NCBI GenBank assembly: GCA_016183815.1
Contig: JACPDW010000006.1
Location: 124,001-188,000, forward strand
Source: Flavobacteriia bacterium
GTDB lineage: Bacteria > Bacteroidota > Bacteroidia > Flavobacteriales_D > Crocinitomicaceae
Direction: 5' to 3'
DNA length: 64,000 bases
Part shown: in pieces, positions 2,751 through 10,077 of the stretch
Numbering within the stretch: position 1 is the stretch's first letter
How the letters are laid out: each line of letters opens with the position of its first letter
The notes under the pieces: generated by a model
The model's database searches: none
Seen by the model: the letters and a program-made list of their open reading frames with translations, nothing else
Told to the model about the DNA's origin: nothing
Translations under genes and position numbers: made by a program

Positions 2751-3269
2751 ATGCCTAATATTATACTTATCGGATATATGGGCTGTGGCAAAAGTACCCT
2801 TGGTAAAAAATTAGCCAAAAAACTTTCTTACGATTTTATTGATTCTGATATGGAAATTGAAAAAATTACTAACCAGACGGTCAACGAAATATTTAATTCA
2901 AAAGGTGAAATTTTTTTTAGAGAATTGGAATCTGCATTTTTGCTTTCATTGAAGAAAAAAAATAATTACATATTGTCTGCAGGTGGTGGTTTACCTTGTT
3001 TTTTTGATAATATTGAGAAATTAAAAAAATTAGGGACAGTTTTGTATTTGAAATTAAGTCCTTTTGAACTTTCGTCACGTTTAAATCATTCTAAAAAAAT
3101 AAGACCACTTTTAGGAGATAAAAATGAAGAAGAAATTTACTATTTTACAAAGGAAAAATTAAATGAACGAAAAGAGTTTTATGAAAAAGCTCATTATATC
3201 CTTAAAGGAAAACAACACAATGTACAGTGTATTATGGAGTTGTTGGGAATAGAAATTTCTAATGTTTAA
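2751..3269 (+). CDS. aroK: Shikimate kinase
   Basis: Phosphorylates the 3-hydroxyl of shikimate with ATP, the fifth step of the chorismate pathway, in the cytoplasm. At 172 residues it has the usual length. The Walker A loop GYMGCGKS is at residues 8-15; D31 and D33 in DSDMEIE bind magnesium and shikimate; FRELE holds the substrate-binding arginine; SAGGGLP is the glycine-rich Walker B region; RPLL marks the lid arginine. The gene has its own promoter-like sequence and ends convergently with the secreted-protein gene on the minus strand, whose out-of-frame sorting domain overlaps its last 11 bases. No other aromatic-pathway gene is adjacent. Confidence 0.95.
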   Translation: MPNIILIGYMGCGKSTLGKKLAKKLSYDFIDSDMEIEKITNQTVNEIFNSKGEIFFRELESAFLLSLKKKNNYILSAGGGLPCFFDNIEKLKKLGTVLYLKLSPFELSSRLNHSKKIRPLLGDKNEEEIYYFTKEKLNERKEFYEKAHYILKGKQHNVQCIMELLGIEISNV

Positions 3270-3441
3270 TAATTAATTTTCCATTCAATATTTTATCATT
3301 ACTATAAATTTTATAATAGTACATTCCGTTATTTAATTTTTCAATATTAATGTAATTATCATTTGATTCAATTATCTTTTGAGAATTTAAATTATAAATT
3401 TCTACTGATGTAACTTTGAAAATTATTTCCTTTTGCGATTT
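3259..3441 (-). other. Out-of-frame T9SS type A C-terminal sorting domain
   Basis: Downstream of the stop codon of the secreted repeat protein, the next minus-strand frame is open from 3441 to a TAG at 3259-3261. It reads as a typical T9SS sorting domain: TSVEIYNLNSQKII, then YINIEKLNNGMYYYKIY, ending GKLIIKH. These match the canonical beta-strand pattern VxIYNLxGQ, LxxGxYxxxI and a short basic end. It has no start codon of its own. It joins the upstream reading frame if one base is dropped near the AAAAGG run at 3429-3434; the merged product would be 442 residues. It is therefore the detached end of the neighbouring gene, by mutation, assembly error or frameshifting. Confidence 0.85.
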
Positions 3442-4588
3442 TCATTATTAATACATTTTCACCACCATCATAGGGATTTGTAGCATATCCTACATAAAGA
3501 ATACCACCATCAGATGTAGAAATAACATCGTTTATAACATCTTCATATAAATAAGACAAATCAAAATATACACTAAGAAAATATAAATCTCCATTATATC
3601 TATATGCTTTTGCATCTAAGCCATAATTGTATATAAACTCTGCTTCTCCTTCCATTGCTCTTAAAATTAAAAAATCATTTTCATAATTTTCTATAAATTC
3701 ACATGAAACAGCATAATATCTATATTCAATATTAATTAATATTGTCTCTCCATTTATGTCGTGTGAGCTTAAATATAAGTTTTTATGCTCGTTTTCAAAA
3801 TAATCCTTAGTATAACCAGCAATTCTTATGGTATCGTTTTTAATATTCATATCGTTAAATACTAATTTGTCTTTATTTTCATAATATTTTGTCCAATCTA
3901 TTGTTCCATTAATGTGCATTTTAGATAAAAATCCAAATGTTTTTTGCCATACATTTTGATAACTTTCCCCCACAATAAAAGCCGTTGTATCGTTATACAT
4001 TTTTATTGACATTGCTCTATCAACTCCATAGTTATCAATATTTTTATCCCAAATCTTTTGTCCAAAACGATTCACTCTTAAAATATACACATTTTCGTCT
4101 TCATTTGAGTTGCTTGTACTTTCACCAACCAAAATAAAAGAGGTATCTTTGAGTATCACCGCATCATAAATGTCTTCATATCCTACACCACCAATTATAT
4201 TTTCCCATAATAAGTTTCCTTCAAAATCTGTTTTAAACACGTATATATCAAAAAAATTTGCTCCAAATGAGTTTGTTTGACCAAAAACATAAACTCCATC
4301 GTTTGGTACATAAAAAATTCTTCGTCCTTTATCAGCTTCACTACCACCATAATCTTTACTCCATTTTACATTTCCTAAACTGTCTATTTTTAAAATAAAA
4401 CATTGTTTGTTAGAAGGCAAATAACTACTTGATGAACCAGTAATTAAATAGGATGAGTCGGGCAATTGAACAGCACCTTCTGCCCTATCGGATTCTTCGT
4501 TGATTAATTTTTTAAAAAAACTTATTTGTGAATAAGTGATTGATGTAAAAAAACAAAAAATAAAATACTTTACAAACGCCATGACCAT
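3392..4588 (-). CDS. Secreted repeat protein, probable beta-propeller, T9SS cargo with frameshifted C-terminus
   Basis: An exported protein of 398 residues as read. A signal peptide (cleavage after SITYSQ near residue 21) is followed by five or six repeats of a pattern like LGNVKWSKDYGGSEADKG, where a short strand ending in W, a GG turn and an acidic residue recur about every 45-50 residues. This is common in Bacteroidota secreted propeller-like proteins. No catalytic motif is visible. The stop at 3392 comes just before what should be a sorting domain, found intact in another frame down to 3259. Without that domain the T9SS would not recognise the protein. The start overlaps the barrel gene by 19 bases; an ATG at 4582 is an equal alternative. 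It is the last gene of a three-gene envelope operon. Confidence 0.75.
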   Translation of the reverse strand: MVMAFVKYFIFCFFTSITYSQISFFKKLINEESDRAEGAVQLPDSSYLITGSSSSYLPSNKQCFILKIDSLGNVKWSKDYGGSEADKGRRIFYVPNDGVYVFGQTNSFGANFFDIYVFKTDFEGNLLWENIIGGVGYEDIYDAVILKDTSFILVGESTSNSNEDENVYILRVNRFGQKIWDKNIDNYGVDRAMSIKMYNDTTAFIVGESYQNVWQKTFGFLSKMHINGTIDWTKYYENKDKLVFNDMNIKNDTIRIAGYTKDYFENEHKNLYLSSHDINGETILINIEYRYYAVSCEFIENYENDFLILRAMEGEAEFIYNYGLDAKAYRYNGDLYFLSVYFDLSYLYEDVINDVISTSDGGILYVGYATNPYDGGENVLIMKIAKGNNFQSYISRNL

Positions 4589-5784
4589 TTAAAATTTAAA
4601 TTTTTTCCATACATCTTGTTACTAAATACAGAGATAAAGTCTTCCAATCCAATAAAAAAACTCATTTTTTTCCATTGTAATCGAGAATATAAACCCCATC
4701 TAAATCCACCAAAACCACCATAAGAAAGTGCACTTCCAATTTGACTGTTTTTACGAAAGGAAAATTCTGCTCCAACAAATATTTTAGGAAAATAAGGTAA
4801 AGTGGGATAAGATTTTACACCAAAAAATGATTGCCACTTTGATGAACTATCCATTGAAGTCAATTTTTGTAAGGTGATAGAAAATGGAAGCACTTCCCAC
4901 GAGTTTAAAGTATCTCTTTTGATATGTAAACTATCCATCCAAGCGTTTTCAGTGGTTTTTACTTCTGAAATTTGAAAAAGTTGATTAACACCAAAACCAG
5001 AAAAAGTAAAGGAAGTATCAGATTGAAATTCAGCTTTTTTTAAATTAACTAAACCTAAATCTTCGACTTTTATTTGAAAATAGACCTCTTTATTTTCGTT
5101 TAAATTAAATTTTAATGTTTGTTGATAATCCATTGAAAATCCTATTCCATTTGACCAATTCACCTTTGGATTTTGTGACCAATTGGCTTGTGCATCCCAA
5201 TAAATAGAATTTCCATTGCTTTCATTAAAAAATTGACCATCTAAATCCCCATTAAAAAAGGAAGAAAGGTTAACAAAATTGAAAAAAATTTGTGAATTAA
5301 ATTTTGGAAATGTAAGTCCTAAACCCAATTTTTGAAAAAAATAATAATTAAATCTCGATGCTTTAAAATCCAAAGTATCTCCTAAAAATCTATCGTTTCC
5401 AAAGGTTAATAATCCGAAAAAATCTTTAGAATAAGAGGAAGCAAACAATGTTTTTGTTCCTGCTTTAATATTCCAAAAAATTGGTTTTTTAACAATCTTT
5501 TTTAAAGGGATATTATTTATTTGAATAGAAAATTGATAATCTAAACCCAAACGATTAAGCTCTTTATGTTTCTGAAACATCTTTTCTTTATCAGTCTCAG
5601 AAAAAGTACCTCCTTGAACAATTTTTTTGGAATAAATATTTTGTATCGAGGAAGAATGAACATCTAAATAGGAAGAAAAAGATAACGATAAACTATCTGA
5701 ATGTGAAGAAAAAGTTTCTTGCATCCATTGCGAATTGGCAAAAAAGACAATACAAATAAATAAAGCCAAAATTCTTATTTTCAA
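4570..5784 (-). CDS. Predicted outer-membrane beta-barrel protein (DUF5723-like)
   Basis: A 404-residue exported protein. Residues 1-19 form a signal peptide ending FFANSQ. The rest alternates short amphipathic strands rich in aromatic residues and glycine, with many F/Y/W at strand ends and a terminal strand finishing in tryptophan and leucine, as in outer-membrane barrels. The overall look resembles the DUF5723/PorP-like barrels of Bacteroidota, but I assign that by pattern only. The gene overlaps the upstream lipoprotein gene by four bases (ATGA) and the downstream T9SS cargo gene by 19 bases. Translational coupling suggests a complex: lipoprotein, barrel and surface protein. Confidence 0.65.
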   Translation of the reverse strand: MKIRILALFICIVFFANSQWMQETFSSHSDSLSLSFSSYLDVHSSSIQNIYSKKIVQGGTFSETDKEKMFQKHKELNRLGLDYQFSIQINNIPLKKIVKKPIFWNIKAGTKTLFASSYSKDFFGLLTFGNDRFLGDTLDFKASRFNYYFFQKLGLGLTFPKFNSQIFFNFVNLSSFFNGDLDGQFFNESNGNSIYWDAQANWSQNPKVNWSNGIGFSMDYQQTLKFNLNENKEVYFQIKVEDLGLVNLKKAEFQSDTSFTFSGFGVNQLFQISEVKTTENAWMDSLHIKRDTLNSWEVLPFSITLQKLTSMDSSSKWQSFFGVKSYPTLPYFPKIFVGAEFSFRKNSQIGSALSYGGFGGFRWGLYSRLQWKKMSFFIGLEDFISVFSNKMYGKNLNFKWSWRL

Positions 5785-7370
5785 TCCAAAACGTTTTGAA
5801 GGTTTATTTTACTTTTAATTCTAACGGCAAAAAAAGCATTTTCAGGTATTTCCACTAAAGTTTGTGAAGGAGTTGACGATTGGGAGTTTAAATTAAGTTC
5901 GATTGTGATATACTTAATTTTTTCTATTTCTTCAACAATTTCTTTTGGAATTGAATAAGTAAAGTTGCTAAAATTAGAAGGTATTCCTAAAGTCGTAAAA
6001 TGTCCATTTTTTGAAGATAAAATCGTGTGTTTTGTTTTATCTTGATATAACTCTTGTTTGTTTTCATCTAAAAAAAGAATATTTAAATCTCCTTCTAAAG
6101 GAAAAGCATTTTCAGTTTCAATAATCAATTGAGCCGACTCGACATGTGTGTTGTCTTCATTCTGAGTTAAATTAAGTGCAAAAGTATCGGTAATTATAAA
6201 TTCATTTAAACCAACTGCTAAAGGCATATTTAAAAGCCAATCAACGGATAATTCGCTTTGAGGAAAAAATTCATCCCAATTTCCAGTTATATTTCCATTT
6301 GGGTTTATTTCTAGGTCATAGTGAATTTCTGTTTGATCACCTAAATTTTCTATAAAATTCTCAATATTACTGTTTAGTGGATTAAGTTCTACAATTTTTT
6401 CCGTTGTTTGCAAAGTACTCCAACTCCCTGTTGGCAACTCGATGTAAAATGGTGTACCTAACTGTGAGTTAGATAGATAGGTTGTATAAGGTAAATCATT
6501 ATTTGTATTACTAACTTTAGCAATATTCACTTTGGATAAATCTTTAATATTATTTTTAATTACAAATTGAGTTGTGATTTCAGGTAAATTGATAGTTCCT
6601 TTAATGTTATCTTTCAACCATTTAGAAATAAAAATAAAAGTGTCAGAAAAGATATGTTTCCCGAAATAACCTCTTGCATAGTCAAATTGTAAATCTTTAA
6701 ATTGTAGATTAAAACGGGTAGAATCAAGACTACTTAATGTTACTGAAGTTCCATTAGGATCAGTAAGAGCGGTAATTTTAGAAGAAAGTGCATTTGATTG
6801 ATATCCATCTGAACCACTTAAATCAATCCAATATCCAGATAAATCAACTGTAATTGTTGAAACTCCAGGGTTATTACCACTTTTTGCAGGTACTCGAGTT
6901 GATTTATTTAGTTTCACACCATTTATTTGCACTTTTGTTAATTCAATATTAATATCAATTGCTGTGCTTAAAGGGTTGGTCACTTCAACGAAAATTAAAC
7001 CTGACTTTATTCGTGCATTTTTCATCAATGCATCTTTCATATTAAAAAAGTGGTCTTTATTATCGTTCACAAAACTAGTTCCTGGAGCAACAGTAATGTT
7101 AGAAATTGAAATAGCATAAGATTTAAGGATATTTGTGTCGGGAATTTTTAACAATTCAGAAGGTTTAAATCGAAATAAATTTCTTTTTAATGCTAGTTGA
7201 TAATTTCCGTTCACAACAGATAAGGTTGAATCATTCACCCAGTTTTTTAAACTTAATGTATCAGAAATTAAAGGAGCAGTCCAGTTTGAATTCCATATAG
7301 TTGCTTCTTTGCGACAAGAATTTAATAGAAAAGTTAATATTATAAAATAAATATTAAGTTTGTAAAACAT
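5781..7370 (-). CDS. Large lipoprotein of unknown function
   Basis: 529 residues with an N-terminal type II signal peptide; the lipobox LNSC puts the lipidated cysteine at residue 19. The mature part is beta-rich with repeated Asn/Ser/Thr segments and no recognised enzyme motif. It starts the operon continued by the predicted barrel and the T9SS cargo protein. Its stop overlaps the start of the barrel gene by four bases. A TAACTTTG box lies only four bases before the ATG, so the messenger leader should be very short or absent. A structural or binding role at the outer membrane is an inference from context. Confidence 0.7.
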   Translation of the reverse strand: MFYKLNIYFIILTFLLNSCRKEATIWNSNWTAPLISDTLSLKNWVNDSTLSVVNGNYQLALKRNLFRFKPSELLKIPDTNILKSYAISISNITVAPGTSFVNDNKDHFFNMKDALMKNARIKSGLIFVEVTNPLSTAIDINIELTKVQINGVKLNKSTRVPAKSGNNPGVSTITVDLSGYWIDLSGSDGYQSNALSSKITALTDPNGTSVTLSSLDSTRFNLQFKDLQFDYARGYFGKHIFSDTFIFISKWLKDNIKGTINLPEITTQFVIKNNIKDLSKVNIAKVSNTNNDLPYTTYLSNSQLGTPFYIELPTGSWSTLQTTEKIVELNPLNSNIENFIENLGDQTEIHYDLEINPNGNITGNWDEFFPQSELSVDWLLNMPLAVGLNEFIITDTFALNLTQNEDNTHVESAQLIIETENAFPLEGDLNILFLDENKQELYQDKTKHTILSSKNGHFTTLGIPSNFSNFTYSIPKEIVEEIEKIKYITIELNLNSQSSTPSQTLVEIPENAFFAVRIKSKINLQNVLD

Positions 7371-8551: not shown

Positions 8552-8821
8552 ATGAACAAATATCTTTTCAAACAACCATCAGACTATTTATTAGAAATAG
8601 CCAAGAAGGAAAAAAATTTTAGAAAAAGAAAAAAATATACTCAAACAGATTTAGCAAATAGAGCAGGAATTTCGTTAGGTAGTTTAAAAAGATTTGAACA
8701 AACAGGAGAAATTTCATTCAATTCTCTTTTAAAAATTGCTCATGTATTAGATGTTTTAGAAGATTTTGAAAATTTATTTAAAGAAAAGGATGTTCCAACA
8801 TTTATTCAAAAATTATTTTAA
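8552..8821 (+). CDS. hipB: HipB-like antitoxin, XRE helix-turn-helix regulator
   Basis: An 89-residue protein with a Cro/C1-type helix-turn-helix at about residues 33-65: YTQTDLANRAGISLGSLKRF is the recognition core. The length and the position directly before hipA identify it as the antitoxin and autorepressor of a HipBA type II module. Its stop codon overlaps the hipA ATG by one base (TAATG), a coupling common in toxin-antitoxin pairs. The upstream palindromes are the likely binding sites. The N-terminal arm is basic. Confidence 0.88.
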   Translation: MNKYLFKQPSDYLLEIAKKEKNFRKRKKYTQTDLANRAGISLGSLKRFEQTGEISFNSLLKIAHVLDVLEDFENLFKEKDVPTFIQKLF

Positions 8822-10077
8822 TGAAAAAGAAAAAACAACAAAAGGCAAATGTTTTTATTAATTTAGAAGGAGTTAAAAATGAAATTGGAACATTAATTTA
8901 TGATGATAGGAAAATTTATTTTAAAATAAAAGATACTTTTCTTGATAATAATTTACCTTTTAAAGGAAAAAAATTATCCCTTTCCCCATTTAAAATTGAG
9001 CATAGTAATCAAATTCAAGTAGCACCTCATATGCCATATGAAGGATTATTTGGCTTATTTTCTGATTCTTTACCAGATGCATGGGGAAAACTTTTAATTG
9101 ATAGATATTTAAAGTCTAAAAATTTAGAACTATTAGAATTGAATCCTTTACTTCGCTTGTTGTATGTAGGAAAAAATGGAAACGGTGCATTAGAGTACGA
9201 ACCACATGAAGAATATTTTAAATCTGAGTTAAGCGAAATTGATTTGAATGAATTTAATTTAGCTTCACAAAAAATTATCATTGGTGAAAACTCTATGTTA
9301 TTGGATGATTTTTATAGACTTGGAGGTACATCAGGTGGTGCAAGACCAAAAATGAGCGTTGGTTTTAATCCGAAAACAAATCACCTTATTCCCATTAATT
9401 CTTATCTTCCTAAAAATTATGAAAATTGGTTAGTGAAATTTCCTTCTACTTTTGATTTGCCTGAAATTGCTAATATTGAATATGCTTACTATAAAATGGC
9501 TATTGCATGTGGAATTGAAATGAGCGATTCCAAATTGTTAGTAGGAGAAAAAGATTCTTGTTTTTTTGTTACAAAGAGGTTTGATAGAAATGAAAACGGA
9601 AAATTACATTTACATTCTTTTGCTGGATTGATTCATGATGATTTTACTCAATGTAATTTAGATTATGGTCATTTATTAGATGCAGCTTTTTATCTTGTAA
9701 ATAGTAAAAGTGTACAACAAAAGATTTTCAAATTGGCTGCTTTTAATGTTTTTTCATCAAATCAAGATGATCATAGTAAAAATTTCTCTTTTATATTCAA
9801 CAAAAAAAAGGAATGGAAATTTGCTCCTGCTTATGATTTAACTTTTTCTCCCTCTAAATATGATTTTAATAGTATGTCCGTCGCAAAAAAACATAAAAAC
9901 ATTCAAACTAATGATTTACTTGATTTAGCAAAACATTTTCAAATTCTAAACGCTGATAAAATTGTTCAAGAAGTAAAAGAAACCATAAATAATTGGCAAT
10001 ATTTTGCAAAAGATGCTGGTGTAAAAAAATCGACTATCTTTTATATCAAAAAAGTGTTAGAAAAAAAAATGAAATGA
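8821..10077 (+). CDS. hipA: HipA-type serine/threonine kinase toxin
   Basis: 418 residues, close to the E. coli protein. The N-terminal subdomain holds PYEGLFGLFSDSLPDAWG. The phosphate loop region GGTSGGARPKMSV is at about residues 169-181. The kinase motif N-x-D-x-H-x-K-N is complete, with D316 as probable catalytic base, and APAYDL gives D339 as the metal-binding DFG counterpart. HipA kinases of this kind phosphorylate aminoacyl-tRNA synthetases such as GltX and stop growth until neutralised by HipB; the target here cannot be deduced. All key residues are present, so it looks active. It is translationally coupled to hipB. Confidence 0.9.
   Translation: MKKKKQQKANVFINLEGVKNEIGTLIYDDRKIYFKIKDTFLDNNLPFKGKKLSLSPFKIEHSNQIQVAPHMPYEGLFGLFSDSLPDAWGKLLIDRYLKSKNLELLELNPLLRLLYVGKNGNGALEYEPHEEYFKSELSEIDLNEFNLASQKIIIGENSMLLDDFYRLGGTSGGARPKMSVGFNPKTNHLIPINSYLPKNYENWLVKFPSTFDLPEIANIEYAYYKMAIACGIEMSDSKLLVGEKDSCFFVTKRFDRNENGKLHLHSFAGLIHDDFTQCNLDYGHLLDAAFYLVNSKSVQQKIFKLAAFNVFSSNQDDHSKNFSFIFNKKKEWKFAPAYDLTFSPSKYDFNSMSVAKKHKNIQTNDLLDLAKHFQILNADKIVQEVKETINNWQYFAKDAGVKKSTIFYIKKVLEKKMK

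Follow-up and report, generated by a model that had tools for sequence, protein, structure and literature searches.

The locus examined here lies in a stretch of 64,000 nucleotides, called the window in what follows, from a 238-kb contig (JACPDW010000006.1) of a Crocinitomicaceae genome labelled Flavobacteriia bacterium (GCA_016183815.1), a draft in 44 contigs. On the minus strand of the window, an open reading frame of 398 codons (3392..4588) encodes a protein with a hydrophobic N-terminus, which by eye resembles a signal peptide, followed by a beta-propeller-like repeat; the model for the delta-60 repeat, TIGR02608, matches this passenger protein with an E value of 2e-6, under the cut-off of the model. 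The passenger ends in ...KIAKGNNFQSYISRNL, while one base on from its frame a second open stretch of 60 codons (3441-3262, minus strand) continues to a TAG stop at 3261-3259, which overlaps the 3' end of a convergent gene of the plus strand, aroK for shikimate kinase (2751-3269, identified by Pfam). No further stops interrupt either frame of the gene. Two neighbours lie upstream on the same strand, one of 404 amino acids (4570..5784) and one of 529 (5781..7370), the latter having by eye a lipoprotein-like N-terminus; neither has a match in Pfam or NCBIfam. Elsewhere in the window, at 8552-10077 of the plus strand, a helix-turn-helix protein adjoins a HipA-like kinase (Pfam HTH_3 and HipA_C), an arrangement that looks like a toxin-antitoxin pair of the HipBA type.

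The 60-codon stretch, hereafter the tail, contains the second half of a T9SS type A sorting domain (VTSVEIYNLNSQ...KLIIKH; 3262..3414, minus strand), one frame beyond that of the passenger. A preliminary description of this DNA had reported a sorting domain in the frame next to that of the repeat protein, and this holds: the tail matches TIGR04183 with an E value of 3.1e-7 and 30.3 bits, above the curated cut-off of 23, and it was recovered in a genome-wide search with the same model at 29.3 bits over positions 19-72. The same description had called the domain a textbook example, which needs to be corrected, for the match covers positions 20-72 of 72 and lacks the N-terminal strand with the [YF]PNP motif that belongs to a whole domain. 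Similarly, the Pfam model PF18962 (Por_Secre_tail) is matched from position 22 of 75 onwards at 26.2 bits, slightly below its cut-off of 27. Nor does the tail form the C-terminus of a cargo polypeptide bearing a signal peptide, as it is read in the frame next to that of the passenger, which stops at 3392. The out-of-frame stretch is nonetheless more than chance. Base shuffling of the stretch kept 60 codons open in 8 of 20,000 trials (0.0004), and with a profile of the corresponding half domain of homologues the tail ranked third (E value of 8e-7) when all 1606 stretches that stay open over 20 or more codons in the six frames of the window were scored; three of them fell below an E value of 0.4 and the fourth reached 0.49.

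The relatives of the passenger show what a complete form of this gene looks like. Used as a query against 59 related genomes, the 398-residue protein found a match in 54, some of these below full length. All 19 of the relatives' loci that were aligned have an open frame of 481-528 residues with a sorting domain at its end, whose [YF]PNP motif could be read by eye once the sequences were aligned. Scanning of named genomes yielded 51 loci, of which six duplicated loci already in the set, and in 48 of the 51 the frame reaches the C-terminus and ends, as judged by eye, in a sorting domain (48/48); the motif in these 48 is PNP after Y, F, I, H, L or V in 42, by pattern search, and SPNP, YPTP or YPVP in six. 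The comparison with homologues that had been proposed for this locus thus finds the domain in frame throughout, the other three scanned loci stopping short of it: L097 and L123 extend past the ends of their contigs, and in L121 the frame ends at residue 132. This last locus (RFSL01000125.1) is an observation in its own right, for homology to the cargo continues in it to residue 390. When TIGR04183 was run on five homologues, all five exceeded its cut-off, with matches from position 1 or 2. After leaving out the three incomplete loci and L021, which holds a masked stretch, and then six duplicates among the remaining 66, there are 60 distinct complete homologues of 481-500 residues, as against 398 here; two of the 60 (L089 and L125) share one genome, so that strict orthology need not hold for all. 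According to the titles of the records, these sequences come from Crocinitomicaceae, Fluviicola and other Flavobacteriales, and from a few unrelated organisms (among them Chitinophaga pinensis and Glaciecola amylolytica), which we take for a matter of labelling of the records. One of these homologues, L105 (CP034120.1), is Fluviicola-like and stands under the title of a gammaproteobacterial chromosome, that of G. amylolytica; the title may be mislabelled.

The gene neighbourhood is likewise shared. In all six of the relatives examined for it, out of the 19 loci mentioned above, the 404-residue and 529-residue neighbours adjoin the homologue, while aroK and the other flanking genes of the window gave no match at an E value of 0.001 in the stretches of the same six relatives. 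The pair of neighbours (4570-7370, minus strand) and the cargo gene form a conserved three-gene unit.

How, then, did half a domain come to lie one frame beyond the protein it would have belonged to? A profile built from the 60 homologues fits the window in the passenger frame over profile positions 5-389 (400.8 bits, E value of 1e-123). In the next frame it fits over positions 431-481 (10.7 bits, E value of 2e-5 with three frames searched), a match that is weak if taken alone. Profile position 389 corresponds to the codon at 3415-3413 and position 431 to that at 3414-3412, so that the two fits abut with an overlap of two bases and no bases are left between them; the junction thus falls at about 3414 (3410..3417, minus strand), where 41 profile positions are absent, equivalent to about 125 bases, a length that is approximate. 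An independent measure, of distance, gives a comparable value. In 18 of 19 homologues a conserved Lys and the G-x-Y motif of the domain lie 77-94 codons apart, the nineteenth being L021 with its masked stretch, which reads 125 codons; in the window the same anchors are separated by 115 bases, or 38.3 codons. By these distances around 40-45 codons have gone, the first half of the domain among them. A run of AAAAGG does lie upstream of the junction at 3429-3434 (minus strand), as had been noted, and the passenger frame still fits the homologues there and as far as about 3415, with the change of frame some 15-20 bases past the run. Abutting fits with 41 positions absent point to an internal, out-of-frame deletion and not to a slip of one base at AAAAGG, which the preliminary description had considered to be the cause. 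The gene accordingly has the marks of a pseudogene produced by deletion: a segment shared by its homologues is missing, and the frame is lost.

With the tail as a query, the loci of the six relatives gave no match at an E value of 0.001. That the tail is nevertheless this gene's own former domain, and was not brought in by a rearrangement, is suggested by the abutting fits together with the shared length of the end.

Most likely, with a probability that we would put at about 0.88, this is an ordinary gene broken by the internal loss of about 125 bases, which cost it both the frame and half of the sorting domain. It is related to a T9SS cargo of about 490 residues with a signal peptide, a repeat passenger, a linker and a C-terminal type A domain, encoded in the conserved three-gene cluster. 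The deletion, not being a multiple of three, would have removed the linker together with the N-terminal half of the domain and its YPNP strand, so that what is left of the domain came to lie out of frame. The product of 398 residues, of which the last six to eight would be new, may still be exported by Sec, remaining unrecognised by the T9SS. Since T9SS cargo requires its C-terminal domain, and changes inside that of RgpB leave the protein periplasmic (PMC11285876), a product without any of the domain would most likely stay in the periplasm or be degraded; in contrast, the last 22 residues of HBP35 are reported to be sufficient for the export of GFP (PMC4804311). The preliminary description had proposed that, if the frameshift was real, T9SS sorting could occur only if ribosomes slipped. 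It was right in that the protein as annotated carries no T9SS signal; a slip, however, would restore no complete domain, adding at best half of one because the first half is missing.

A loss of function by this route would presumably be recent. To see whether the passenger has been decaying faster, we compared branch lengths in small trees, each with seven sequences, and found no clear excess: the passenger has a branch of 0.75, compared with 0.68 and 1.03 for the two neighbours, the corresponding values for the relative G003 being 0.66 against 0.53 and 1.09. The lack of further stops and this ordinary branch length fit a recent event, which cannot be dated because the nearest relatives are only about 45% identical in the passenger. 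The same evidence needs to be read with caution, as a passenger still in use could likewise show an open frame of 398 codons and an ordinary branch length. One can thus envisage that the very same deletion led to a functional re-targeting, the passenger being retained and working in the periplasm without its T9SS tag. The 398 codons that remain open speak for it, as does a branch length in line with those of the two neighbours and of G003; a recent pseudogene would look identical, however, and every complete homologue examined (19/19 and 48/48) has kept the tag. We consider this outcome unlikely, if still to be reckoned with, and retain disruption of an ordinary gene as the preferred reading.

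The rest of the genome provides the setting for this deletion. The T9SS translocon protein SprA (TIGR04189) is found with 2450 bits in an intact open frame of 2441 codons, a model for which none of 14 control genomes has a match, and the sorting domain is matched at least 150 times, each time above the cut-off (of 194 candidates, 150 were scored); on the basis of SprA and of these matches, the T9SS is probably present. A search of the genome found no other copy of the disrupted gene, the next matches having 36% identity over 90 residues and 24% over about 290. Fourteen of the 150 sorting-domain matches were inspected, selected because the frame was short or the match incomplete; one of the 14 is an intact neighbour. 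Among these 14, out-of-frame halves of sorting domains occur at two further loci, L064 and L065. The first (2677-2892 of locus L064, on contig C22) is a decayed relative of the cargo gene at locus L063 (1710-3443 of that locus, on contig C4), with 90-91% identity over about 530 bases; it lacks 97 bases of L063 (3213-3309, comprising the end of the linker and the YPNP half), and the blastn pieces abut at 2758/2759. Its frame is shifted, further lesions lie upstream, and the end of the contig is nearby. At L065 (contig C19, 34709-34861, minus strand) a frame of about 120 codons resembling a secreted protein ends in GLSHIGLRIKNK and is followed in another frame by a half domain with no YPNP, which suggests a deletion there too. 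As a separate matter, the cargo gene at L063 is directly followed by an orphan sorting domain in a frame of 91 codons (3619-3891 of L063), which has 83% DNA identity over 206 bases to the domain of the intact cargo gene preceding it. In a genome of the same genus (G002), one match of 145 was looked up (C12, 106948-107100, the only one of them to lie in a frame of fewer than 60 codons); it runs into the end of its contig and is not counted. In this genome, then, deletion is hardly an exception in cargo genes, the numbers being too small for a rate.

These loci also bear on whether the deletion at the window could be an artefact of assembly, in which case the 125 or so bases would exist in the organism and would have been lost in building the contig. 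The genome being a draft, this deserves consideration. A gap of such size within a 238-kb contig requires, however, a misjoin and not a miscall, and the tail looks single-copy, its sole other DNA match having 75% identity over about 70 bases (40 of 146 candidates scored); moreover, out-of-frame half domains recur at two more loci, even if one of them lies near the end of a contig. An artefact is therefore improbable to about the same degree as the re-targeting discussed above. Nor does the same DNA search support the view that another gene in this genome recently supplied a copy of the domain, the 75% match over about 70 bases being the only possible source among the candidates scored; an older capture is possible. 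A bolder proposal would view the loss of half a domain as a recurring, one-step route of exit from the T9SS in this lineage, by which the 398-residue passenger would have been kept as a periplasmic protein and of which the window gene, L064 and L065 would be traces, as opposed to simple decay; we hold it to be rather improbable.

Even less credit can be given to an insertion or an error of one base, in sequencing or assembly, near AAAAGG. As had been calculated, omission of one base fuses the two frames into 442 residues, and this is correct as arithmetic. The true protein would then be some 40-50 residues short of the 60 homologues and would have half a domain, the first 19 domain positions with YPNP being unmatched. 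The gap in the profile and the fit of the passenger frame past the run would stay as they are, and a single-base indel is rejected on the basis of the profile fits and of the anchor distances. Least tenable is a programmed +1 ribosomal frameshift into KVTSVEIYNLNSQ, yielding a minority of T9SS-sorted protein: the frame of the tail is open, but all homologues with a complete frame (19/19 loci and 48/48) encode the domain in frame, so that a conserved frameshift is rejected, and a slip would yield half a domain; changes inside the RgpB domain blocked secretion (PMC11285876). The disruption of an ordinary gene by an internal deletion consequently stands as the best account of this locus.

For annotation, this means that an internal deletion should be recorded as what disrupts the gene, which is more than a single base away from intact, and that its 398-residue product should not be tallied among T9SS cargo. 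It also calls for caution with other half domains found out of frame, for a larger missing segment can mimic an error of one base, and comparison with homologues alone tells the two apart. The accessible part of the literature on sorting domains lost by frameshift or present as pseudogenes offered nothing to the point.

In comparison with the T9SS type A sorting domain as defined by TIGR04183 and PF18962, the tail has the G-x-Y motif and ends in the usual way, and differs in lacking the first half with YPNP and in being out of frame with the secreted passenger. Compared with the delta-60/beta-propeller-like cargo family of about 490 residues found in Crocinitomicaceae and other Flavobacteriales, the window gene belongs there by homology of its passenger, alignable over positions 5-389, and by the same two neighbours that occur in all six relatives examined; it departs from this family in that about 41 codons are absent and the frame stops early, before running complete through the domain. 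L064 and L065 resemble the window gene in that the second half of the domain is out of frame with the preceding sequence and the YPNP half is absent, while L064, unlike the window gene, carries further lesions and has a paralogue of 90-91% identity, the window gene having no close paralogue.
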